From: Bacteroidota bacterium | GTDB taxonomy: Bacteria; Bacteroidota; Bacteroidia; 2-12-FULL-35-15 | Direction of reading: 5' to 3' | Assembly (NCBI GenBank): GCA_947449315.1 | Contig: CANFRC010000008.1 | Span: 62,001 to 126,000, forward strand | Length of the DNA stretch: 64,000 nucleotides | In this document: positions 15,482 to 23,971 of the stretch, in pieces | Position numbering within the stretch: position 1 is the stretch's first letter | Layout: each line of letters begins with the position of its first letter | Program-made: the position numbers and the translations under genes | Notes under the pieces: model-generated | Told to the model about the DNA's origin: nothing | Databases searched by the model: none | The model's input: the letters and a program-made list of their open reading frames with translations, nothing else

Positions 15482-18400
15482 TTAATAATCTAGATCTCCG
15501 TAATCCAATTTTATCCCTCTTAAATACATCACAAAACGTGTTATTAAGATGAAGAACGGAACATACATCACAACATTGGGTAATCCAAAATATTGTAAGA
15601 TAATCGCAGATTTTCGTTTCAAACGTTCTGCAATCAGATACATTGCAGGTACTAACAACAGTGTTAAAAATGTTGCGAAAGAAAGGCCAAAGATCATCGT
15701 CCAAGATAAAGGCCCCCAGAACACCACGTTGTCTCCTCCAAAATAAATGTGAGGATTGCCATGTGAAAGGAGTGTTTCAAAATCGATATTCAATCCAACT
15801 GCTAAAGGTATCAATCCAAGAATTGCTGCTGTTGCGGTTAAGATCACCGGAGTCATACGCGTACGACCTGCATTAACGGTTGCGTCCCACAAACTTTTTC
15901 CATCGGCACGTTCCATCTCGGCAAATTCTACCAACAATATTCCGTTCCTTACTACAATCCCTGCTAATGCAATTACTCCAACACCTGTCATCACGATACT
16001 CATATCCATCTTGAATAAAGCGGTACCAATTAAAACTCCGATGATACTAAAGAAGATCTCTGTTAAAATGATAAATGGTTTTCCAATAGAGTTAAACTGA
16101 GTAACCAGAATCAAAAGGATCAAGCCAAGAGATAGCAACATGGCATTGCCAAGAAATGCGCCTGTCTCCGCTTGCTCTTCTTGCTGACCAGTCATTTTTA
16201 TCTCCACATTTCCTTTTGCAACGTAGCCTTTCATCGCTTTTTCAACTGCCGCAGCAACTTCATTTTCATTATTTCCTGCCGTCACATTCGAACCCAATGT
16301 GATCACACGTTTTTGCATCTTACGTTTAATGCCGCCATACGTGTTGCTATATTCAACAGATGCGAAAGCAGACAAAGGAACACTTCTTAAGATACCTCCC
16401 ATGTTCATATCACGGAACGTGATCTTCAAATTTCTTAAGGCTTCAATATTATTTCGTTGATCATACATATAGCGAAGCTGAATAGGATATTCATCATTGT
16501 CATCACGAAATTTACTCACCTCAGCACCAAAAACAGCATTACGAATCTCCATACCAATACTTCCGGTAGAAATACCTTCTCGATTTGCACGCTCTCTATC
16601 GATATTAAAAACTATTTCGGGTTTGTTACTTTCAAAATCGGATTTTAAATTTTCAACTCCGGTAATTTTTTGTTCATCTAAATAACGTTTCAATTGTGTT
16701 GCATTATATACAAGCTCATCAAAATCATCTCCTTTTACTTCAATATTAATTGGCTTAGAAACAGGAGGCCCAGCTTGTTCTTTGTTGACGTTTATCTCCG
16801 CTCCTGGAATATTCCAATCTAATTTTTGCAGGCTTGTTAAAATCTCTCCAGTAGATGCGCCATGACGTTCAGAAAAATCTACAAAGGAGATCGCAATCTT
16901 TCCTTTATTCGGATAATCACTTTGATCCTGATCCTGAGGATCGGTAGTTCCTTTAGTAACATTGGTGATCACCGATTTTACAATCTTATTTGAATCACCT
17001 AATACTGAATTTACTTTTTGTTCCACCTGCATCATCACTTTATTTGTTTTGGCAGGATCGGTACCTACAGGTAATTTCACATATACATATACGAAGTTCG
17101 GATCTCCTTGCGGGAAGAACACCACCTTTGGGCTGCGCAAAGCGAAAAAGACAATTGCAAAAACAAACAATACCAAAGTGCTGGCAAGAGCCATCCAAGG
17201 ACGATTTAAAAAGCGGAATAATAATTTTGTATAACGATCCTGAAAGGCAGGCCAAATTTTTGTTTGAAATTTTTCAATCACTTTGTGCAACCAAAAACGG
17301 TGAAGCAACATAAAGAAAGCAAAAAACAAAACCAGATTTCCAAACGAGGAATGTCCCATCAAATGAGCAATTACAGATGCAACGACATATAACAATAATT
17401 GAATTTTTGCAAGCTTAGTCAGTTTACCATATTTCGCTTTTTCTTCTTCATGTGTTTTCATAAAATCAACAGCAAAAACAGGATTGATAATATAAGCAAC
17501 TAATAAAGAAGCGAGCAAAGTAATGATCAAAGTGATGGGCAAAAAGAACATAAATTTACCGATGATACCTGTCCAAAATGCAAGTGGGATAAAGGGCGCC
17601 AGCGTAGTAAGTGTTCCACTTAATACGGGAAGAAACACTTCTCCTGCAGCCATTTTTGCAGCCACTTTAATGTTACGTTTTCCGTTATCAAAAAGTCGGT
17701 GTGTATTTTCAATAACAACAATCGCATCATCTACTACAATTCCGAGAGCCAACAAAAATGCAAATAGCACAATCATATTTAATGTAAATCCAATACTCGG
17801 CATAAACAAGAAAGCGATGAACATGGATAATGGAACCGATGCCGCCACAAATATGGCATTAGTAACACCCATAAAGAACATTAAAATAAAAGTCACCAAA
17901 ATAAATCCGATGATAATCGTATTGATAAGATCATGCAGGGTGCTTCTTGATTTTTCTGACTGATCACCGGTAACTGTAACTTTCAGGTCTTTAGGAAAAT
18001 CTTTTACCTTCATATCTGCAATGATCTCATTGATCTTGTCGGAAGCTTCGATCAGGTTTTCTCCAGAACGTTTTATAATGTTCAGCGTTATTACGTTCTT
18101 TCCTTCCAAACGAGCATAACTCTCTTGCTCTTTATTGCCATCTACAACTTCTGCAATATCTTTCAAATACATTTTTGCACCAGAACCCGAGGTGATCACA
18201 AGATTTTTTATTTCTTCCACTGATTTAAATTCAGCTTTCACGGAAAGGTTTCTTTTCATCCCATCCATTGGAACCAAACCACCGGAAATATTCATGTTCT
18301 CGTATTGAACGGCTCTTTGAATGTCACTCAAAGCGAAATTTGCAGCCTGAAGTTTATACATATCCACATTGATCTGAATTTCTCTTTCAAGATCTCCAAC

Positions 18401-18940
18401 CATAACTACTTTGGATATTTGTTTCATTCCTTCGATCTTGTCTTTCAGATCATCGCCATATTTTTTTAATTTATTAAGATCCATGTTCCCTGCAATGTTC
18501 ACATACATAATAGGAAGATCGGAGAATGCCACTTCCAAAACATTTGGCTGACGCGTAAGATCTTTCGGAAGATCTGTAGCTGCTTTATCAACAGCATCTT
18601 TTACTTTTTGCTTTGCAATGGCAACATCCACATTTGTATTAAACTCAACAAGTATAACCGAGACATCTTGTAAGGAGGTAGAATTTAATTTTTTTACCCC
18701 TGAAATCGATTTCAATTGTTTTTCAATAGGTTTCGTAACCAAATTCTCAATATTTGTAGGAGAATTTCCTACGTATACGGTATTCACATAAATTGTCGGA
18801 ACAACAATATCCGGGAAGTTTTCTTTTGGTAATTTGTTGTAGGACATAATACCAGCAATTGCAATAAAAATGGTAAGAATATAGATACTTATTTTATTAT
18901 CAATCGCCCAGCTTGATGGTTTAAATTCTTTAAAATTCAT
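15482..18940 (-). CDS. RND-family efflux pump, inner-membrane permease
   Basis: 1152-aa proton-driven exporter of the AcrB/HAE1 superfamily. An N-terminal helix (ISIYILTIFIAIAGIMSY) is followed by a large periplasmic loop. A block of helices carries the paired aspartates of the proton relay (GIVVDDAIVVIENTHR), then come a second periplasmic loop and a C-terminal block (GVGVIALAGIVVRNGILLVEF). An extra insertion of hydrophobic segments near residues 500-560 lengthens it beyond the usual 1030-1050 aa. ATG 18940 is preferred over TTG 18946. It is the last gene of tetR-tolC-adaptor-pump. The paired aspartates suggest drug-type rather than metal-type export. Confidence 0.93.
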   Translation of the reverse strand: MNFKEFKPSSWAIDNKISIYILTIFIAIAGIMSYNKLPKENFPDIVVPTIYVNTVYVGNSPTNIENLVTKPIEKQLKSISGVKKLNSTSLQDVSVILVEFNTNVDVAIAKQKVKDAVDKAATDLPKDLTRQPNVLEVAFSDLPIMYVNIAGNMDLNKLKKYGDDLKDKIEGMKQISKVVMVGDLEREIQINVDMYKLQAANFALSDIQRAVQYENMNISGGLVPMDGMKRNLSVKAEFKSVEEIKNLVITSGSGAKMYLKDIAEVVDGNKEQESYARLEGKNVITLNIIKRSGENLIEASDKINEIIADMKVKDFPKDLKVTVTGDQSEKSRSTLHDLINTIIIGFILVTFILMFFMGVTNAIFVAASVPLSMFIAFLFMPSIGFTLNMIVLFAFLLALGIVVDDAIVVIENTHRLFDNGKRNIKVAAKMAAGEVFLPVLSGTLTTLAPFIPLAFWTGIIGKFMFFLPITLIITLLASLLVAYIINPVFAVDFMKTHEEEKAKYGKLTKLAKIQLLLYVVASVIAHLMGHSSFGNLVLFFAFFMLLHRFWLHKVIEKFQTKIWPAFQDRYTKLLFRFLNRPWMALASTLVLFVFAIVFFALRSPKVVFFPQGDPNFVYVYVKLPVGTDPAKTNKVMMQVEQKVNSVLGDSNKIVKSVITNVTKGTTDPQDQDQSDYPNKGKIAISFVDFSERHGASTGEILTSLQKLDWNIPGAEINVNKEQAGPPVSKPINIEVKGDDFDELVYNATQLKRYLDEQKITGVENLKSDFESNKPEIVFNIDRERANREGISTGSIGMEIRNAVFGAEVSKFRDDNDEYPIQLRYMYDQRNNIEALRNLKITFRDMNMGGILRSVPLSAFASVEYSNTYGGIKRKMQKRVITLGSNVTAGNNENEVAAAVEKAMKGYVAKGNVEIKMTGQQEEQAETGAFLGNAMLLSLGLILLILVTQFNSIGKPFIILTEIFFSIIGVLIGTALFKMDMSIVMTGVGVIALAGIVVRNGILLVEFAEMERADGKSLWDATVNAGRTRMTPVILTATAAILGLIPLAVGLNIDFETLLSHGNPHIYFGGDNVVFWGPLSWTMIFGLSFATFLTLLLVPAMYLIAERLKRKSAIILQYFGLPNVVMYVPFFILITRFVMYLRGIKLDYGDLDY

Positions 18941-19011
18941 AGTCAATTTATATTAATTTCATTTTAATTCGAATCATTTTGGAATGCTACCATTCTGTAT
19001 GAATCAAAAAA

Positions 19012-20118
19012 TTATTTTTTATATGCGATCAAATCTCCTTCATTTACTAGGTCGTAGCCACTTTCTAAAAGAAGATCCCCTTCTTTTAAGCCCGAAATAA
19101 TTTCCGCTTTCCCATTGTACTGTTTACCAATATTTACCAATTGTTTTTTTGCTTTATTGCCTTCGGCAACAAAAACATAAAAAGAATTGTTCTCATCTTT
19201 TTGTATGACATTTACCGGAACAATCAAAACAGGTGTCGCCGATTGGTAATCATTAATACTTAAACGTGCAACCATATTTGGATGATATTGTTTTTTATTA
19301 TCCAACAACACCTCCACGTTAAAAGTTCTGCTACTCAAATTAATTGCACGGGAAACAAAATTAACTTTCGCGATAATGGAATCATTCATGTCGGGAAAAC
19401 GAACAACAACATCAGCTCCTTTTTGGATCTTAGCAGCATAGGTTTCTGCAACATCTGCTTTCACTTTTAAGTTAGAATAGTTGATCACTCTAATGGAAGG
19501 CATTCCAGGAGAAGCAATTTGGCCAAGCTTAATATCCACGGCATCCACATTTCCATTAATCGGAGAAATTATCTTTGTCATTTTTAATTGCTCCTGTAAC
19601 GCAGCCATTTTTTTAGACATACTTTCTTTATTTGTTTTCGCTTGTAAATACTGCACTTCAGTACCAATTTTTTGTTCCCAAAGATTTTTTTGTTTCTCAT
19701 AGATTTGGGTTACAAGATCTGCATTGGTTTGCAAGTCAGAAATTTGCTGACTGATAGCGCGAGCATCTGTTTCAGCTAAAACCTGTCCTACACTAACTTC
19801 ATCACCTACTTTTACATTTATTTTTGTAATCGTTCCGGGCATTTCAGAACTCAGCGCAACATTTTCATCTGCATCTACTTTGCCTTGCACATCAATAAAA
19901 TTTCTGAACATTTCTGCTTTAAGACTAATGACAGAAACAGCCAACCCTTTTGGAGCAGAATCATTTGCGCTCAACTCTGTTTCCAAAGCTTGAATTTTTG
20001 ATTTTAATTCTGATTCTTGTTTTTTTAATTTCTCCAGCTCCGCTTTTTTGTCGTTACCTGCCGAATGACATGCTAATATTGCTAATGCTAATGTTGGTAT
20101 AAAAAATAATTTTTTCAT
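19012..20118 (-). CDS. RND efflux periplasmic adaptor (membrane fusion protein), lipoprotein
   Basis: 368-aa adaptor linking the pump to its outer-membrane channel. A lipobox ILAC puts the lipid on C17. A short coiled coil immediately after it (residues about 24-52, KKAELEKLKKQESELKSK) is followed by the biotinyl-lipoyl half (VKVGDEVSVGQVLAETDA), an alpha-hairpin, the matching lipoyl half (KIISPINGNVDAV), and barrel and membrane-proximal domains. It sits between the tolC-like and pump genes with short gaps, in one operon. Confidence 0.92.
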   Translation of the reverse strand: MKKLFFIPTLALAILACHSAGNDKKAELEKLKKQESELKSKIQALETELSANDSAPKGLAVSVISLKAEMFRNFIDVQGKVDADENVALSSEMPGTITKINVKVGDEVSVGQVLAETDARAISQQISDLQTNADLVTQIYEKQKNLWEQKIGTEVQYLQAKTNKESMSKKMAALQEQLKMTKIISPINGNVDAVDIKLGQIASPGMPSIRVINYSNLKVKADVAETYAAKIQKGADVVVRFPDMNDSIIAKVNFVSRAINLSSRTFNVEVLLDNKKQYHPNMVARLSINDYQSATPVLIVPVNVIQKDENNSFYVFVAEGNKAKKQLVNIGKQYNGKAEIISGLKEGDLLLESGYDLVNEGDLIAYKK

Positions 20119-20150: not shown

Positions 20151-21494
20151 CTATTTAAGGTTTCCGTTTGCTTTATCAAAATCGATCTTTGCCACAATGG
20201 CATCAAACAAGGCATTGTAATAATTTGTCTGTGCTTCTTTTAATGCTGTTTCTGCTGAGGTTAGCTCCAAATTTGAACCCACACCTTGTTCGTATTTTAG
20301 CTTAGCAACACGCACAACTTCTTCTGCAATAGAAATATTTTTCTTTTGATTATCTAATGAGGATGAGGCATTCTGTAGCACAGTAACAGATGAAGCCAAT
20401 TCAAGATCGATGGATTTTTTTATAAAATCCATATTGTTTTCTGCTTTTTGCAATGACAATTGTGCTTGTTGTGTTCTTGCATGACCTCTTAAACCTGTGA
20501 AGATGGGGAAGGTAACTTTAGCGCCTATTAAAGCTGTAGGATACCAAGGTGTAGCAGCATTGAAAATATCAAACTCGTTTCTCATCGCAGTTTGAGACAG
20601 CGATCCATAGGCAACAGCAGTAGGTAAAAAAGCCATTTTATTACGTTTCAGATCAAGTTTTGCTAACTGATATTGCGCTTCAAATAATCCATACTCTGAA
20701 CGTTTGGCATAGTCGAATTTATCAGATGTATTGTTGGTGCCCACATCAAATTTTACATCGTCTAATTTATCCGACAAGGTAAGTGTTGCGTTGATATCCA
20801 TTCCCATCTGATATTTTAACAGATAGCTTCCTAAACCTAACAAGCGTTGAATTTTCTCTTGTTCTACTAAAAGATTGTTATAGGTAACGGTCAGTCGGTC
20901 GTAATCAATTTTTTCAACAAAGCCATTCTCCAACAAAGCTTTTGTATCATCAAGCGCTTTTTTTACCCGCACAATATTTGCATCCATCAGCTTGTTTCGT
21001 TGTTCATTTACAAGAACAGTGTAATATGCCTTGCTAACAGCAGCACATGTTTCCGTCTTAGTTCGCTGTGTGGCTATTTTTGATAATTCAACAAATGTTT
21101 TTGACGCTTTCAAACCAAGAAAATAATCACTGCTGAATAAAAGCTGTGATGCATCCAGTCCTGCTGATGCTTGATATTGCAATCCGAATTTAAGAGCAGA
21201 ATAAACTCCCGGAGGGCCACCAAAATTTGATGCAGCAACTATGCTCGTCGGCACTTCAATAAAATCTTTGAAGTCAAAACTTCCATTGATTTGAGGTAAA
21301 CCCGATCCTAAAATTTCGTTTACCTTCTTTTGTGCAATAGCTTCATCGATGATTGCATTTTTCACATCCTTTTGATTTTGCAGTGCATAATCTATTGCCT
21401 GCTTTAGAGAAAATGTATAGGACGTATTCTCTTTTGTTTGTCCAAAAGAATCCAACATCAATATACTTAATCCAATAATTATTATTCGTTTCAT
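20151..21494 (-). CDS. TolC-family outer-membrane efflux channel
   Basis: 447-aa outer-membrane factor with a signal peptide (about 1-20). It has two repeated halves of long amphipathic helices, each beginning in the family manner (FSLKQAIDYALQNQKDVKNA; RSEYGLFEAQYQLAKLDLKRNKMAFLP). The C-terminal ELTSAETALKEAQTNYYNALFDAIVAKIDF is the closing helix pair of OEP domains. It should form the trimeric exit duct of the pump encoded downstream. It is placed between the tetR regulator gene and the adaptor gene. Confidence 0.92.
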   Translation of the reverse strand: MKRIIIIGLSILMLDSFGQTKENTSYTFSLKQAIDYALQNQKDVKNAIIDEAIAQKKVNEILGSGLPQINGSFDFKDFIEVPTSIVAASNFGGPPGVYSALKFGLQYQASAGLDASQLLFSSDYFLGLKASKTFVELSKIATQRTKTETCAAVSKAYYTVLVNEQRNKLMDANIVRVKKALDDTKALLENGFVEKIDYDRLTVTYNNLLVEQEKIQRLLGLGSYLLKYQMGMDINATLTLSDKLDDVKFDVGTNNTSDKFDYAKRSEYGLFEAQYQLAKLDLKRNKMAFLPTAVAYGSLSQTAMRNEFDIFNAATPWYPTALIGAKVTFPIFTGLRGHARTQQAQLSLQKAENNMDFIKKSIDLELASSVTVLQNASSSLDNQKKNISIAEEVVRVAKLKYEQGVGSNLELTSAETALKEAQTNYYNALFDAIVAKIDFDKANGNLK

Positions 21495-21534
21495 AGTTCT
21501 ATTTTTAATCTGGTTGTGTATATATTATTTTTGA

Positions 21535-22149
21535 TTATTCATCATCCGACAGATCTTTATTCTTGTTGATCATTTTGTGTCCTTTTAGCGTACAAATGCC
21601 ATATAAAAAATGATCCAGCAACGCCAACTGTATGTCCACAATCTTAAATTTATCCAAGGGAAAAACTTCAGAATTTAATCCCATCTCAACTTGCTCAATC
21701 CTCATAATTGAAAGCACTTTTGAATTCACATCGCTTCTCACGAGCCCCTCTCTTTTGCCTCTTTCAATTGATGCTTCAATTGTTCGTGCCATACAATCAT
21801 GCTTAAATGCTTGAAAGAGATTCCAGGCTTTAGGATGATATTTTTGAAGATCATAAAATATTGTCGGATTGGTTTTTGAGAAGATGATGCTAATGTGTTT
21901 CATCATGTGAAAAACTTCCTCTATCATATTTGCGGACTCTTTCTGAATAATTTGAAATTCGATCTCATCCTCTTTTAACTTAGCAGCCATTAATGTTTCT
22001 ACCAACTCATTTTTATCACTATAAAACTGATAGATTGTTTTTTTTGATATGGCCAAATGTTTTGCAATATCATCCATTGTGATACTTTTTATCCCATACT
22101 TAAAGAAAAGCTCTTCGGCACCATGTAATATCCTTTCTTTTGTTTCCAT
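21535..22149 (-). CDS. TetR/AcrR-family repressor of the efflux operon
   Basis: 204-aa regulator. The N-terminal helix-turn-helix (residues about 5-50) contains GIKSITMDDIAKHLAISKK and TIYQFYSDKNEL, the classic TetR recognition region. The rest is an all-helical ligand-binding and dimer domain with no recognisable ligand signature. It is the first gene of the operon, a layout typical for a repressor that also controls itself. Two GGAAAC-N16-GTTTCC inverted repeats lie just upstream, one inside the operon promoter. The C-terminal tail is charged (MINKNKDLSDDE). Confidence 0.92.
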   Translation of the reverse strand: METKERILHGAEELFFKYGIKSITMDDIAKHLAISKKTIYQFYSDKNELVETLMAAKLKEDEIEFQIIQKESANMIEEVFHMMKHISIIFSKTNPTIFYDLQKYHPKAWNLFQAFKHDCMARTIEASIERGKREGLVRSDVNSKVLSIMRIEQVEMGLNSEVFPLDKFKIVDIQLALLDHFLYGICTLKGHKMINKNKDLSDDE

Positions 22150-22172
22150 TTTCTATTTAGTTAAATCCGCGG

Positions 22173-22203
22173 CAAAACTATGGAAACATTTTTTATTTCC
22201 AAA
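22173..22203 (-). promoter_or_regulatory. Promoter of the tetR-efflux operon
   Basis: On the minus strand a -33 TTTG (22200-22203) and a -7 TAGTTTTG (22173-22180) are separated by exactly 19 bases, matching TTTG-N19-TAnnTTTG. It lies 24-54 bases upstream of the tetR ATG. Confidence 0.75.
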
Positions 22204-22209
22204 GTTTCC
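22182..22209. promoter_or_regulatory. Candidate TetR operator 1 (inside promoter)
   Basis: Inverted repeat GGAAAC-N16-GTTTCC that fills the spacer between the -7 and -33 elements and covers the -33. A protein bound here should block RNA polymerase. The same repeat with equal spacing recurs at 22264-22291. Confidence 0.6.
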
Positions 22210-22263
22210 GCTCTGTTTTTCTTGCAATTGAAACTTAATGGCCTGATTACCAATAATAAAAAC

Positions 22264-22291
22264 GGAAACTATTTTTTAAGAAAATGTTTCC
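22264..22291. promoter_or_regulatory. Candidate TetR operator 2
   Basis: Second GGAAAC-N16-GTTTCC inverted repeat, 82 bases centre-to-centre from the first. Compared in the proper orientation, the two sites share CGGAAACT and, ten bases on, AAAATGTTTCCA. Confidence 0.55.
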
Positions 22292-22311
22292 AAAATGTAT
22301 TTTTTCAGGAA

Positions 22312-22341
22312 TTTACGATGACAGACTGTTTACTAATTTTG
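22312..22341 (+). promoter_or_regulatory. Plus-strand promoter-like site before an orphan terminator
   Basis: TAATTTTG (22334-22341) fits the -7 consensus perfectly. TTTA (22312-22315), 18 bases upstream, is a one-mismatch -33. Transcription would run toward the terminator at 22415-22446. Confidence 0.4.
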
Positions 22342-22347
22342 TTGATG

Positions 22348-22446
22348 ATGCTATAGATTGTTTATTTCAAAGCATAAAATCAGTATCGAAATAATCCAAA
22401 ATAACACCGTTTTAAAAAAGCCATTCTCAATAAAGAAGGGCTTTTT
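22348..22446 (+). ncRNA. Putative small RNA upstream of asnS
   Basis: A promoter-like site at 22312-22341 and an intrinsic terminator at 22415-22446 bound a unit of roughly 100 bases that has no reading frame of note and belongs to no neighbouring gene. asnS has its own promoter-like site further downstream. The start is estimated from the distance to the -7 element. An attenuated asnS leader is the other reading. Confidence 0.3.
22415..22446 (+). terminator. Orphan intrinsic terminator upstream of asnS
   Basis: Stem AAAAAGCC / GGCTTTTT, continued inward by TTCT / AGAA after one mismatch, with loop CAATAA. No gene ends here on either strand: tetR runs leftward from 22149 and asnS begins at 22538. 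Confidence 0.65.
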
Positions 22447-22457
22447 AAATTTAATAT

Positions 22458-22488
22458 ATTGTTAAACCCTAAAAAATTCGTTTTTTTG
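22458..22488 (+). promoter_or_regulatory. Candidate asnS promoter
   Basis: ATTG (22458-22461), a 19-base spacer, then TTTTTTTG (22481-22488), which differs from TAnnTTTG by one base. It lies between the orphan terminator and the asnS start. Confidence 0.35.
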
Positions 22489-22537
22489 TATGCTCCATTT
22501 TTTATCGAATTGGGAAAACAAACAAAATGATTTATCA

Positions 22538-23971
22538 ATGAAAAGAACTAAAGTGAAAGAGCTGTTAAATTCTACAGCATATGGAAATGAAGTAACTGTA
22601 ATGGGGTGGGTGCGTACATTTCGTAACAATCAATTTATTGCAATTAATGATGGTTCAACAATAAATAATATTCAGGCAGTTGTTGATTTTGAAAACACTG
22701 ATGAAACACTTTTAAAAAGACTTACTACGGGTGCCGCAATAAGCATTACAGGTGAACTCATCGAATCGTTGGGGAAAGGTCAGAAAGTGGAAGTTAAAGT
22801 GAAACACCTTGAAATACTTGGAGATAGTGACGCTGAAAAATTTCCGTTACAACCAAAAAAACACAGCCTTGAATTCTTACGCGAAATAGCTCATTTGCGA
22901 TTCAGAACAAATACCTTCAACGCGGTATTTAAGGTACGTCATACATTAGCATTCGCTATTCACCAATTTTTTAATGACAGAGGATTTGTTTATTTGCATA
23001 CCCCTATCATCACAGCATCGGATGCAGAAGGAGCTGGAGAGATGTTTCGTGTTACCAATCTAGATTTCGACAACCCACCTCGTTCAGAGGATGGTAAAGT
23101 TGATTTCAAACAAGATTTCTTTGGCCGCTCTACCAACCTTACCGTTTCGGGTCAGCTGGAAGGGGAACTTGCAGCAATGGCATTAGGAGAGATTTACACA
23201 TTCGGTCCCACATTCCGGGCAGAAAATTCTAACACCACTCGTCACCTTGCTGAATTTTGGATGATAGAACCAGAAGTTGCATTTGCTGACTTACAAGACA
23301 ACATGCAGTTAGCGGAAGACCTATTGAAATACGTGATTAAATATGCTATTGAACATTGCGCGGACGAATTGGAATTTTTAAAGAACCGTTTATTAGAAGA
23401 AGAAAAATCAAAACCTCAGGACGAACGTTCTGAATTGGATTTACTTGCTAAATTGAATTTCTGTTTGTCAAATGATTTCGAACGATTAACATACACCGAA
23501 GCGATTGACATCTTAAAAAATTCAACCCCTAATAAAAAGAAAAAATTCAAATACCTGATCGAAAATTGGGGTGCCGACCTGCAAAGTGAACACGAACGCT
23601 TTTTAGTAGAGAAACATTTCAAGAAACCTGTCATATTAACGGATTATCCAAAAGACATTAAGTCGTTTTACATGAGACAAAATGAAGATGGAAAAACAGT
23701 TGCAGCGATGGATATTTTATTTCCTGGTATTGGTGAAATAATTGGTGGATCTCAGCGAGAAGAACGAATGAGTCTGCTTGAGAAAAGAATGGATGAAATG
23801 CATATTCCTAAAGATGAACTTTACTGGTACCTGGATACCCGAAAATTTGGAACTGCCCCACACGCTGGATTCGGATTGGGGTTTGAAAGATTGGTTTTGT
23901 TTGTGACTGGAATGACAAACATTCGTGACGTAATACCTTTCCCTAGAGCTCCAAAAACTGCCGAATTTTAA
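22538..23971 (+). CDS. asnS: Asparaginyl-tRNA synthetase
   Basis: 477-aa class IIb synthetase charging tRNA-Asn. The N-terminal OB-fold anticodon-binding domain covers about residues 1-110 ([13 protein letters not shown]). The catalytic core has motif 2 ([20 protein letters not shown]) and motif 3 ([12 protein letters not shown]). PFPRAP near the C-terminus is typical of AsnRS/AspRS. ATG 22538 begins the conserved [10 protein letters not shown]; the reading frame extends 16 codons upstream without family similarity. Confidence 0.96.

Follow-up and report, generated by a model that had tools for sequence, protein, structure and literature searches.

A palindromic operator predicted to join a TetR-regulated RND efflux operon to a wider cell-envelope regulon in Bacteroidota, with a probable auxiliary site upstream

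The stretch of DNA analysed here (the window, 64,000 nucleotides of a Bacteroidota genome) carries on its minus strand genes for a predicted TetR-family repressor, a TolC-like outer-membrane protein, a periplasmic adaptor and an RND permease, preceded by the two inverted repeats that we term O1 and O2 (Table 1). Both repeats had been reported in the initial annotation as copies of GGAAAC-N16-GTTTCC, and both were confirmed in place with zero mismatches. As also described there, they have CGGAAACT and AAAATGTTTCCA in common when O1 is read on the minus strand and O2 on the plus strand, and the distance of 82 bp given between them is that from start to start. Base composition predicts approximately 0.002 exact repeats of this kind per 64 kb and 0.09 for the whole genome of 2.61 Mb; the genome contains four, against none for a reversed-pattern control. 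Of the remaining two copies, one falls in the promoter of a metallophosphoesterase gene (L001), the other in that of a TonB receptor gene (L002).

Table 1. Positions within the window of the genes, operators and promoter elements discussed in the text.
Feature	Position	Strand	Basis or remark
RND permease (AcrB/AcrD/AcrF family)	15482..18946	minus	Pfam ACR_tran, 621 bits
RND pump periplasmic adaptor	19012..20118	minus	TIGR01730, 164 bits (cut-off 94.9)
tolC-like outer-membrane efflux protein	20151..21494	minus	Pfam OEP
tetR, predicted repressor, 204 aa	21535..22149	minus	Pfam TetR_N (PF00440), 44.6 bits (cut-off 24)
-7 element TAGTTTTG	22173..22180	minus	19 bp after the -33 element, 1 bp after O1
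O1, primary operator GGAAAC-N16-GTTTCC	22182..22209	minus	Exact palindrome; overlaps the tetR-tolC-mfp-acrB promoter
-33 element TTTG of the tetR promoter	22200..22203	minus	Inside O1; sequence, sigma-ABfr consensus
Conserved element, possible HU/IHF-type bend site	22236..22262	minus	Alignment and position-peaked score
O2, GGAAAC-N16-GTTTCC	22264..22291	.	Exact palindrome, 82 bp upstream of O1; no promoter elements recognised

Read on the minus strand, O1 and the promoter have the sequence GCGGAAACTTTGGAAATAAAAAATGTTTCCATAGTTTTGCCG. The initial annotation had O1 exactly filling the gap between the -33 and -7 elements, which we correct here: the -33 TTTG (22203-22200, minus strand) sits within O1, as the four bases directly following its outer GGAAAC, and the 19-bp promoter spacer runs from 22199 to 22181. 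The resulting arrangement, TTTG-N19-TAGTTTTG, agrees with the sigma-ABfr promoter consensus of Bacteroidota, which has TTTG near -33 and TAnnTTTG near -7 (PMC7366714). By containing the -33 element and abutting the -7 element, O1 has the predicted layout of a TetR-family operator, a palindrome placed over the promoter of the regulator's own operon. This layout is common to all three genomic copies other than O2, and a genome search for the 37-bp composite GGAAAC-N16-GTTTCC-N-TAGTTTTG, allowing up to three mismatches, returned exactly three sites, each of them a perfect match, and none for the control.

The protein encoded by tetR carries the N-terminal TetR_N helix-turn-helix domain of the family, and its AlphaFold2 model (pLDDT 94.2) predicts an all-helical TetR fold with a ligand-binding domain. 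The best matches in a structure search were TetR-family chains, SmeT and MtrR among them, with Z scores of 15-17 over 175-200 residues and a maximum of 17.4 (rmsd 2.6 over 181 residues). Within the recognition helix, residues S35, K36, T38 and Y40 are invariant in 55 aligned homologues of 31-77% identity.

Comparison of the same intergenic region in related genomes had been put forward in the initial annotation as a test that could refute the operator, and across this comparison the operator was retained with at most one mismatch at 79 of 79 and 35 of 39 loci. The first set, made up of loci in named genomes for which sufficient upstream sequence was available, held 73 exact operators and 6 with one mismatch, while 29 were exact in the second set of 39 tetR relatives. 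TetR identity in this second set ranged from 63% down to 31%, and most loci came from other families; the genus itself contributed five, of which three are orthologues at 61-63% and two are second copies at 48%. In both sets, the best match upstream of tetR to a control with reversed half-sites had three mismatches. The gene order tetR-tolC-adaptor-pump was also kept in nearly all relatives; the operator is still present in the most distant families, often without TAGTTTTG after it. The proposal that O1 is the operator through which TetR represses tetR-tolC-adaptor-pump is thus supported by conservation of both operator and gene order, and O1 as a predicted switch by which TetR represses its own drug-pump operon is strongly supported across many Bacteroidota families.

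Beyond this genome, the composite operator-promoter motif was matched approximately 120 times in 84 of 395 genomes of the class (control 0). Thirty-six composite loci fetched from other families precede either a TetR gene (n = 24) or a TonB receptor gene (n = 12), the receptors being 45-64% identical to that of L002. Within the genus, composite sites precede genes for TetR, the TonB receptor or the phosphoesterase, with the exception of L021, where the site precedes a 457-aa reading frame that matches none of the three. A DUF4249 gene follows the TonB receptor gene, and the phosphoesterase resembles YaeI and LpxG, below the cut-offs of both models (105.8 vs 188 bits and 100.8 vs 350 bits, respectively). 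Since other promoters in the genome carry the operator, it appears from sequence to mark several promoters and hence a regulon rather than a single operon, and the common theme of the members is the cell envelope. A fatty-acid desaturase gene (L269:5996-6724) was also observed immediately upstream of the TonB receptor operon predicted to be under the operator's control.

From these observations we infer a mechanism in which the TetR encoded at 21535-22149 would bind O1 as its operator and, once bound, would cover the sequence from -33 to -7 in the sole promoter that we recognised for the tetR-tolC-adaptor-RND pump genes, blocking transcription until a ligand releases it. The same operator-promoter module would place the TonB receptor/DUF4249 operon under this TetR and, in this genus, the YaeI/LpxG-like phosphoesterase as well. 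O2 would most likely strengthen repression of the tetR promoter, either because TetR binds O2 and O1 cooperatively or because a short loop joins the two, possibly with the help of a DNA-bending protein at the element between them. Taken as a whole, the explanation in which O1 is the TetR operator, the regulon includes the receptor and the phosphoesterase, and O2 is auxiliary to the same promoter appears highly probable to us. The sequence analyses show the operator, how it is conserved, how it is tied to this TetR family and overlaps the promoter, which genes belong to the regulon, and that the O2-O1 spacing is fixed and the element between the sites conserved along with it; that TetR binds and represses, that a ligand releases it, that the two sites cooperate or loop and that a bending protein takes part are inferred, and looping through a bending protein is possible.

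A second operator at a fixed distance is a feature of the genus. Among 103 non-redundant tetR promoters, sites of the O2 type (at most one mismatch) were found at an offset of 81 bp in eight loci and 82 bp in six, all 14 within the genus, and singly at offsets of 51, 107 and 108. Exact double operators were absent from other genera among the 395 class genomes searched. On the TetR tree, the presence of O2 has to change four times, which can be read as a single gain at the base of a 22-row clade and three later losses; on this reading O2 is younger than O1, gained within the genus and lost about three times. Because about half of the genus loci are without it, O2 is not essential. In the 17 loci bearing O2 with up to three mismatches, pairwise identity is 87% for the half-sites, 45% for the O2 core and 30% for the 30 bp beyond O2. 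As all O2 loci fall within one 22-row clade, the fixed spacing may be partly ancestral, although 1-bp indels do occur and the surrounding DNA has diverged. O2 is likely to be an auxiliary operator.

Alignment of the DNA between the two operators revealed a T-tract, TGATWATCA and TTA; in the window, the T-tract occupies 22262-22258 and is followed by AATCAG-GCCA-TTA at 22248-22236. The consensus for IHF binding is WATCAANNNNTTR, with which the window element agrees at 8 of 9 positions, and together with the upstream A/T tract it gives the window and the O2-bearing loci the sequence features of a putative IHF-type site. The highest WATCAANNNNTTR score falls exactly 39 bp upstream of O1 in O2-bearing loci (mean 7.29/9), compared to 4.51 +/- 0.16 in 2000 shuffles of the spacer (maximum 5.18); as the motif was chosen after the alignment had been seen, this comparison speaks to a conserved position rather than to IHF-type binding predicted beforehand. 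The peak was absent from the 15 genus loci without O2. Scores at individual loci were 7-9 in the 17 O2-bearing loci vs 3-7 in those without O2, consistent with loss of the element alongside O2 (Mann-Whitney P = 3e-6, without correction for shared ancestry). The genome encodes four HU-family proteins, for none of which an IHF alpha or beta model reaches its cut-off, and an IHF site proper was therefore rejected. Since IHF is moreover reported to be essentially proteobacterial (PMC5683647), we call the element only IHF-like.

Several other readings of the second operator and of the element were weighed against its role at the tetR promoter. The initial annotation had suggested that O2 could control a plus-strand unit, and in nine O2-bearing relatives a divergent gene is indeed present, encoding a secreted protein (876-1192 aa by reading frame) that in several relatives stands between tetR and asnS. 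No such gene occurs in the examined genomes without O2, so an ancestral role for O2 at that gene is conceivable, and the window O2 could be a remnant left after gene loss; the window is without the divergent gene but retains before asnS an orphan terminator-like hairpin on the plus strand (22412-22449, with no recognised gene upstream), which may be left over from the secreted-protein gene of the relatives. Against this reading, exact O2 persists in three genomes that do not have the gene (the window, G004 and G026), and a TTTG-N18-20-TAnnTTT promoter was not found on the divergent strand near O2 in any of the 17 O2-bearing loci. Candidate -7 boxes of the divergent gene, picked by pattern, lie 61-106 bp beyond O2, counted from its far end, and this distance varies, while the O2-O1 distance is fixed at 81-82 bp. 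This combination of a fixed and a variable distance favours a role on the tetR promoter, making control of the plus-strand unit disfavoured and O2 as the divergent gene's operator an improbable explanation, at perhaps a quarter of our belief. Only slightly more credible is independent binding of TetR at O2, which would add local occupancy or titration but neither loop nor cooperate with O1: the half-sites of O2 are well conserved and a single operator suffices in most relatives outside the genus, yet neither the fixed spacing nor the conserved element between the sites would be predicted.

The element itself could instead be the site of another transcription factor, recognising the 9-bp palindrome TGATWATCA, a reading to which we give a little under even odds. 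TGAT, its left half, shows almost the same conservation as ATCA, and TGATWATCAAN4TTA recurs in ten genomes of the genus (for example L291-L300), with 42 matches vs 6 for the control. Conversely, neither the TTA nor the T-tract has a mirrored counterpart, so that the layout is asymmetric like that of an IHF-type site, and the few other copies examined are mostly intergenic and near unrelated genes, as expected of an architectural protein. That the two operators and the bend-like element together make up a repression loop for TetR, with an HU-family protein of Bacteroidota replacing IHF at an IHF-type sequence, is a tentative and rather doubtful proposal, and to our knowledge such an HU-assisted architecture is not known in the TetR family. 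Finally, as the operator also precedes genes that are not adjacent to tetR, it might belong to a global regulator other than the TetR encoded here. This is very improbable, given that almost all the relatives tested, to as low as 31% identity, have the operator upstream of tetR, and that the TetR family of this locus usually has a single member per genome.

Other observations were made around the locus. The divergent arrangement of asnS and tetR (21535-23971) recurs in several families of the class. Among the divergent secreted proteins encoded next to O2, upstream of tetR, in nine relatives (L271-L280), that of L271 has a C-terminus resembling a type IX secretion signal, and in L041 and L274 a shorter palindrome, GGAAACATGAAAAGTTTCC, in which the same half-sites stand 7 bp apart, adjoins O2. 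A small RNA at 22292-22460 was considered and rejected, as the region folds little better than shuffled sequence (z -0.78) apart from its one terminator-like hairpin, and Rfam returned nothing above gathering thresholds in 21400-22700.

Our preferred reading, TetR acting at O1 with O2 as auxiliary, resembles the AcrR, TtgR, SmeT and MtrR systems, in which a TetR-family repressor is encoded beside RND pump genes and its operator overlies the pump promoter. In those systems the regulator gene is divergent from its pump operon, whereas tetR is here the first gene of the operon; the operator sequence, the sigma-ABfr-type promoter and the TonB receptor and phosphoesterase targets also differ, and the NCBIfam models for AcrR and MtrR gave weak N-terminal matches only (26.5 and 26.7 bits). 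The locus also resembles repression loops of the GalR/HU or lac type, in that two operators tens of bp apart flank a possible bend site upstream of a promoter. It differs from them in having a TetR-family protein, and its loop is putative. QacR of Staphylococcus aureus binds a 28-bp operator as two dimers (PMC6018408). O1 and O2 agree with this dimer-of-dimers class in operator length only, their half-sites being outer hexamers on either side of a 16-bp core that varies and is mostly A/T-rich. The type of switch is already known, while no description of this operator, regulon or O2 module was found in the open-licence part of PubMed Central.

Overall, these analyses provide a precise predicted operator and regulon for a TetR-RND family that spans many Bacteroidota families. 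The regulator, pump, receptor and phosphoesterase can now be studied jointly and a common inducer sought. Should looping prove true, the O2-O1 module would offer a compact system for asking whether HU-family proteins take over the work of IHF in a phylum from which IHF is reported to be missing.
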